From NCBI GenBank assembly GCA_012729555.1, contig JAAYCX010000048.1, forward strand, positions 1 through 48,805: 48,805 nucleotides of DNA, read 5' to 3'. Position 1 is the stretch's first letter. Every line of letters begins with the position of its first letter. Positions 12,029 through 12,280 of the stretch are shown here, piece after piece. The position numbers and the translations under genes are program-made. The notes below the pieces were generated by a model. It was given only the letters and a program-made list of their open reading frames with translations, did not search any database and was not told where the DNA came from. This stretch comes from Acidobacteriota bacterium. Lineage in GTDB: Bacteria; Acidobacteriota; UBA6911.

Positions 12029-12280
12029 CTAGAAATCGTCCTCGTCGTCGTCGTCGTCGTCGTCGTCGTCGTCATACTCCTCGTCGTCGTCCCAGTCGTC
12101 GTCCTCGTCGTCGTCGTCAAAATCGAAATCGTCCTCGTCGTCCGCGGGGGCGAGATCGAATTCCAGGGGATCGAGCGAAATCACCTCGAGCTCCACCCCG
12201 CATTCGGGGCAGGTGATGATCTCGCCCACTTCTTCGATGTCCTCTTCGATAACGGCATCGCATTCCGGACAGTAGCTCAC
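12029..12280 (-). CDS. LysW-like zinc-ribbon protein with a polyaspartate tail
   Basis: 83 residues. The start is the GTG at 12280 because GGAGG sits six bases in front of it; a TTG six codons upstream lacks this. Residues 1-45 closely resemble the amino-group carrier proteins LysW/ArgW: zinc ribbon CPEC (4-7) and CPEC (24-27), then ELEVISLDPLEFDLAP. Residues 46-83 are almost entirely acidic: 32 of 38 are Asp or Glu, with only Ala, Phe, Trp and Tyr interspersed. LysW proteins normally end in EDWGE, whose last Glu carries the amino acid; that ending is absent and the chain ends EDDF. No lysX/argX partner is nearby. Carrier function is therefore doubtful; another role for the acidic tail is possible. 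Confidence 0.8.
   Translation of the reverse strand: MSYCPECDAVIEEDIEEVGEIITCPECGVELEVISLDPLEFDLAPADDEDDFDFDDDDEDDDWDDDEEYDDDDDDDDDDEDDF
12038..12120. repeat. Trinucleotide (GTC/GAC) repeat tract
   Basis: A run of CGT/GTC triplets, interrupted by a few CTC, CAT and CAG units, encodes the acidic tail of the LysW-like protein on the minus strand. Both Asp codons and some Glu codons occur, but most units are identical, so the tract could change length by slippage in whole codons. Confidence 0.8.

Follow-up and report, generated by a model that had tools for sequence, protein, structure and literature searches.

An acid-tailed relative of the lysine carrier LysW is encoded at positions 12,029 to 12,280 of the window (the whole stretch of 48,805 nucleotides that was analysed, from an Acidobacteriota genome), directly upstream of larE, the gene of a PP-loop sulfur insertase. 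As judged by sequence, these acid-tailed LysW-like proteins form a class distinct from the canonical LysW carriers, and what is new is their larE context. Gene order and gene overlap suggest that the protein is a LysW paralogue that has lost its carrier chemistry and may now assist LarE, without being an enzyme itself, in making the nickel-pincer cofactor, a tentative reading to which we assign a probability of about 0.4.

A LysW zinc ribbon without the carrier terminus

The locus comprises the following features, all on the minus strand:

11030..11932, minus strand: larE, PP-loop sulfur insertase, 300 aa from the ATG at 11932 (TIGR00268, 284 bits; CXXC plus a third Cys)
11957..11974, minus strand: core of a hairpin with U8 that resembles an intrinsic terminator and separates the LysW-like gene from larE
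12029..12280, minus strand: LysW-like hyperacidic protein, coding sequence of 83 aa with a GTG start; stop codon TAG at 12029-12031
12032..12145, minus strand: hyperacidic tail, residues 46-83, with F52, F54, W63, Y69 and F83; predicted low-confidence coil
12044..12073, minus strand: ten consecutive GAC codons (residues 70-79), a tract whose length probably varies
12092..12094, minus strand: codon of W63, the counterpart of the EDWGE Trp in the alignment; unchanged in every complete family copy
12146..12280, minus strand: LysW zinc-ribbon domain, residues 1-45, CPEC...CPEC (PF21344, PDB sequence matches, AlphaFold model)
12287..12291, minus strand: ribosome-binding site GGAGG, 6 nt upstream of the GTG; identical in two congeners
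12344..12373, minus strand: sigma-70-type promoter-like site TTGACC-18-AATAAT; conserved in two congeners

The 83-residue product consists of MSYCPECDAVIEEDIEEVGEIITCPECGVELEVISLDPLEFDLAP followed by the 38-residue tail ADDEDDFDFDDDDEDDDWDDDEEYDDDDDDDDDDEDDF. Its ribbon scored 52 bits against PF21344 (cut-off 27) and 51.4 bits against the TIGR01206 lysW profile, slightly short of the equivalog cut-off of 53.2, and its PDB sequence matches were the LysW entries 3wwl and 5k2m only. In an AlphaFold model (24-row), the mean pLDDT of 10-residue blocks was 84–88 over residues 1–40 and 52–59 over the tail. Foldseek searches with this model returned 3wwn, 3wwl, 5eio, 5k2m and 3vpb, all LysW, as top matches, and LysW chains were its only confident structural matches. 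The PF21344 score and the model thus bear out the LysW zinc ribbon recognized in the first-pass annotation. In LysW, the C-terminal Glu of the EDWGE motif bears the substrate (PMC10433800). The window protein ends in ...EDDF, with neither the motif nor the terminal Glu. A genome-wide search returned it as the sole PF21344 match, so that no canonical LysW with an EDWGE end was found elsewhere in the genome. Searching the genome with TIGR02144 at E 1e-25 did not recover a LysX either, and we saw no ATP-grasp gene next to the locus. The earlier remark that no lysine-pathway gene lies nearby therefore holds and extends to LysX genome-wide; the lysX-lysZ partner that would have spoken against a new class was looked for and did not occur.

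Translation and residue counts confirmed the 38-residue tail first described, in which 32 residues are acidic (27 Asp and 5 Glu). Since no other 38-residue stretch in the six frames of the window (outside 12000-12300) exceeds 16 acidic residues, a chance origin of the tail is excluded. GAC accounts for 24 of its Asp codons, including the run of ten, and the slippage-prone triplet tract proposed earlier is real in the window species. Relatives, by contrast, encode similarly acidic tails with mixed codons, with GAC, GAT, GAG and GAA all used in varying proportions across the family, so the tail cannot be put down to slippage alone. The complete tails of the family range from 20 to 39 residues and are 71–85% acidic; their last residue is F, R, Y, N, V, I, D or E, and roughly 10 residues or more follow the Trp. 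The first-pass annotation described the EDWGE end as replaced, and the motif has indeed been lost, but it is not simply missing: W63, within DDDWDDDE, aligns with the EDWGE Trp, and the Trp of a D/E-W-D-D/E pattern was kept in all complete family copies in the alignment. We infer from these sequences that W63 descends from the EDWGE Trp. In one congener (L068 6001-6249), the tail repeats a GDW/DDW unit, which gives three Trp in the acidic tail.

Orthologues were present, one each, in all nine sampled congeners and in three of five other genomes of the family (12 of 14 in all), and the only copy without a full tail, in G009, lies at a contig end. Orthologues with mixed-codon tails rule out an assembly or slippage artefact, and normally ending homologues that would expose such an artefact were sought and did not occur. 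The ten-GAC run and the variation in tail length could also be read as marks of a LysW in decay, with a tail lengthened by GAC slippage and free of selection. We regard this as very improbable, given the retention in 12 of 14 relatives, a ribbon identical to that of the nearest congener (one synonymous change), tails that remain strongly acidic with mixed codons, and a conserved promoter-like site and ribosome-binding site.

The nearest congener also keeps the hairpin between the LysW-like gene and larE, with one compensatory C:G to T:A change in the wider stem. Because this U8 hairpin separates the two genes and is kept in the congener, transcription of the LysW-like gene in the window is probably for the most part separate from that of larE. 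An inverted repeat at 12313-12341, just downstream of the promoter-like site, was not conserved in two congeners, and no Rfam element was detected at the locus.

Canonical and acid-tailed LysW proteins in Acidobacteriota

We sampled 179 Acidobacteriota genomes, 71 of which contained a match above the PF21344 cut-off, and defined the acid-tailed class as a LysW ribbon with an Asp/Glu-rich tail, no EDWG[E/Q] end and no adjacent LysX. Proteins ending in EDWGE or EDWGQ were found in 22 genomes, exactly the 22 with LysX above threshold (a Fisher test was run). Reading of the C-termini identified acid-tailed proteins without such an end in 54 of the 179 genomes, and the window protein falls in this class. 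In G052, the single PF21344 match lies inside a 440-residue frame and was counted in neither class. Given that six of the 54 genomes (G017, G019, G075, G095, G135 and G188) have both types, the acid-tailed and canonical LysW are distinct paralogues. Outside Acidobacteriota, all matches ended in EDWGE except for one short end (L092), in a non-exhaustive scan of named genomes with family-derived patterns. A tree of the ribbons of LysW-type proteins has too few columns to settle one origin for the acid-tailed class. No phage homologues of the LysW-like protein were found, and the open literature, to which our search was confined, yielded no paper on acid-tailed LysW-like proteins.

The earlier proposal of a new LysW-derived class is thus upheld as regards the loss of the carrier terminus and the lack of a lysine partner, but the architecture is not peculiar to the window genome: searching for it in other Acidobacteriota, as had been recommended, recovered it in the 54 genomes. 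Annotation pipelines will probably label such proteins as LysW and thereby predict lysine or arginine synthesis through LysW in genomes without LysX; the split by EDWGE end and LysX offers a simple rule against this misannotation in Acidobacteriota.

Association with larE

In the window, larE is the next gene downstream of the LysW-like gene, on the same strand, a recurring neighbour that the first-pass annotation had missed. Of the 54 genomes with an acid-tailed protein, 14, from eight families, have the LysW-like gene immediately upstream of larE in the same orientation (G000, G004, G005, G007, G017, G050, G087, G098, G118, G135, G143, G167, G188 and G195); in most of the others the genes are non-adjacent, and some copies are at contig ends. 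The same order is found in the window's family and in G017, a member of another family. At all ten Vicinamibacteria-group loci, larE directly follows the LysW-like gene; a larE start codon and the LysW-like stop overlap by 4 nt in six of them, and in three more a GTG larE start is found 10 nt before that stop ends. A HAD-like hydrolase gene is located between the two genes in several relatives, some of them from the window family (L038, L040, L041 and L048), and in G017, and is missing in the window. LarE was encoded in 51 of the 54 genomes with the acid-tailed protein versus 76 of the 125 others (Fisher p 1.6e-6, uncorrected for kinship, which inflates the association). In a LarE tree, the linked LarEs fell into three blocks, with four label changes on the best tree and a single origin possible; the linkage may therefore be one inherited event rather than the outcome of repeated selection.

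In Terriglobia and several other families, the acid-tailed gene has other neighbours than larE, genes that by sequence reading encode peptidase, rhomboid, carboxypeptidase-regulatory-like or VWA proteins. Three genomes (G105, G148 and G165) have the acid-tailed gene without LarE at E 1e-40, and two others, G075 and G108 (L179 and L183), keep the response-regulator and OmpA/Pal-like neighbours of the larE-linked block with larE located elsewhere. Since many genomes have LarE without the acid-tailed protein, LarE does not need it. We also considered whether linked LarEs are more basic, and the opposite trend was seen: the mean net charge was -0.2 for LarEs beside the LysW-like gene versus +4.0 for the others, which disfavours simple electrostatic docking. 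The presence of the tail Trp did not convincingly track larE linkage (about 6 of 9 families or groups with the linkage versus 4 of 9 without it). Three acidobacterial VWA-domain genes (TIGR03436), at 9128-11069 and 12445-13515 of the window, flank larE and the LysW-like gene; one of them is transcribed divergently from the LysW-like gene and keeps this position throughout the window family. VWA and MetG neighbours are likewise conserved in the window lineage.

The window LarE contains the motifs VAYSGGVDS, RCFHCK and PASACLAS. It thus shows the SGGXDS and CXXC-C pattern that defines [4Fe-4S]-type LarE (PMC9283937). The genome has a single larE and, elsewhere, LarA-, LarB- and LarC-type genes, the last on another contig, so that the nickel-pincer pathway is present. 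Together with the CXXC-C pattern, these genes make it most likely that the window protein is an ordinary nickel-pincer LarE. To our knowledge, the natural route of sulfur delivery to cluster-type LarE has not been settled. No LarE partner of the LysW-like kind was found in the literature searched; within the open literature, the only work naming both LysW and LarE was an archaeal annotation survey, in unrelated places.

Possible roles of the acid-tailed protein

A role as a LarE accessory would fit a protein that has kept the ribbon, lost the C-terminal carrier Glu and gained a long, variable Asp/Glu-rich tail with spaced aromatic residues. Docking on LarE would involve both the ribbon and the Trp-containing acidic tail, and the docked protein would help to present substrate, sulfur or metal to the enzyme. 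By analogy, such docking can be likened to that of TtuB, a small ubiquitin-like sulfur carrier, on the related PP-loop tRNA thiolase TtuA. TtuB works through a C-terminal thiocarboxylate, and LarE has been compared with TtuA (PMC9283937). The more specific proposal, in which Acidobacteriota turned an amino-group carrier into a protein partner reserved for LarE, an undescribed carrier or docking subunit of nickel-pincer cofactor synthesis, appears rather unlikely. Against an accessory role stand the acid-tailed copies located away from larE, the three genomes that lack LarE, the terminator-like hairpin between the genes in the window and the HAD-like insertion in several relatives. The copies away from larE, which persist in Terriglobia and other families, favour a different reading, in which the protein is an acidic adaptor of general use with no tie to LarE. 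It would bind a basic partner such as RNA polymerase, the ribosome or a nucleic-acid-binding protein, as an interaction tag or nucleic-acid mimic, and the larE neighbourhood would be inherited synteny. The genomes without LarE, the two that keep the neighbours of the linked block with larE elsewhere, and the conservation of VWA and MetG genes in the window lineage point the same way, and we consider the adaptor nearly as likely as the LarE accessory. What it hardly explains without a functional tie is the overlap of the genes in Vicinamibacteria and their adjacency across eight families.

Two further roles would keep the protein in metal or carrier chemistry. As a metal buffer or nickel chaperone, its Asp-rich tail would loosely bind Ni2+ or another divalent ion during assembly of the nickel-pincer cofactor, which the presence of LarA, LarB, LarC and LarE genes would accommodate. 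This is improbable, given that LarE performs the sulfur step while the nickel step belongs to LarC, on another contig, and that a mixed Asp/Glu composition, a conserved Trp and, in the window, a tail devoid of His are atypical of nickel-binding tails. It is even less probable that the protein still carries an amino group (or a thiocarboxylate) on a new terminus, with some ligase joining the substrate to a tail carboxylate. A W-x-E/D end (DWEE, DWDE, DWED and EWQE) does survive in several relatives that are linked to larE but belong outside the window family; within the window family, the ends vary and lie some ten or more residues past the Trp, no LysX is encoded in the genome and no ATP-grasp gene accompanies the locus. 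Among the roles guessed at in the first pass, a protein-interaction tag would fit the linkage to LarE, whereas the metal buffer and the DNA mimic gained no support here. If the link to LarE is functional, the acid-tailed protein would be an undescribed participant in nickel-pincer cofactor synthesis and an example of a carrier protein changing pathway.

Comparison with known systems

The closest known system is the LysW/ArgW carrier (TIGR01206, PF21344; 3wwl and 5k2m), with which the window protein shares the four-Cys zinc ribbon, the ELEVISLDPLEFDLAP segment, the acidic character and the fold. It differs in lacking EDWGE and the C-terminal carrier Glu, in the family tail of 20–39 residues, in the absence of LysX from the window genome and in a score below the TIGR01206 equivalog cut-off. 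The neighbouring enzyme has in common with LarE, the sulfur insertase of the nickel-pincer cofactor, the SGGVDS motif and the CXXC plus third Cys. The TtuB/TtuA pair likewise combines a small protein with a PP-loop [4Fe-4S] sulfur enzyme, a likeness that we offer as analogy only, with no claim of homology; unlike TtuB, the window protein is a zinc ribbon without a conserved C-terminus.
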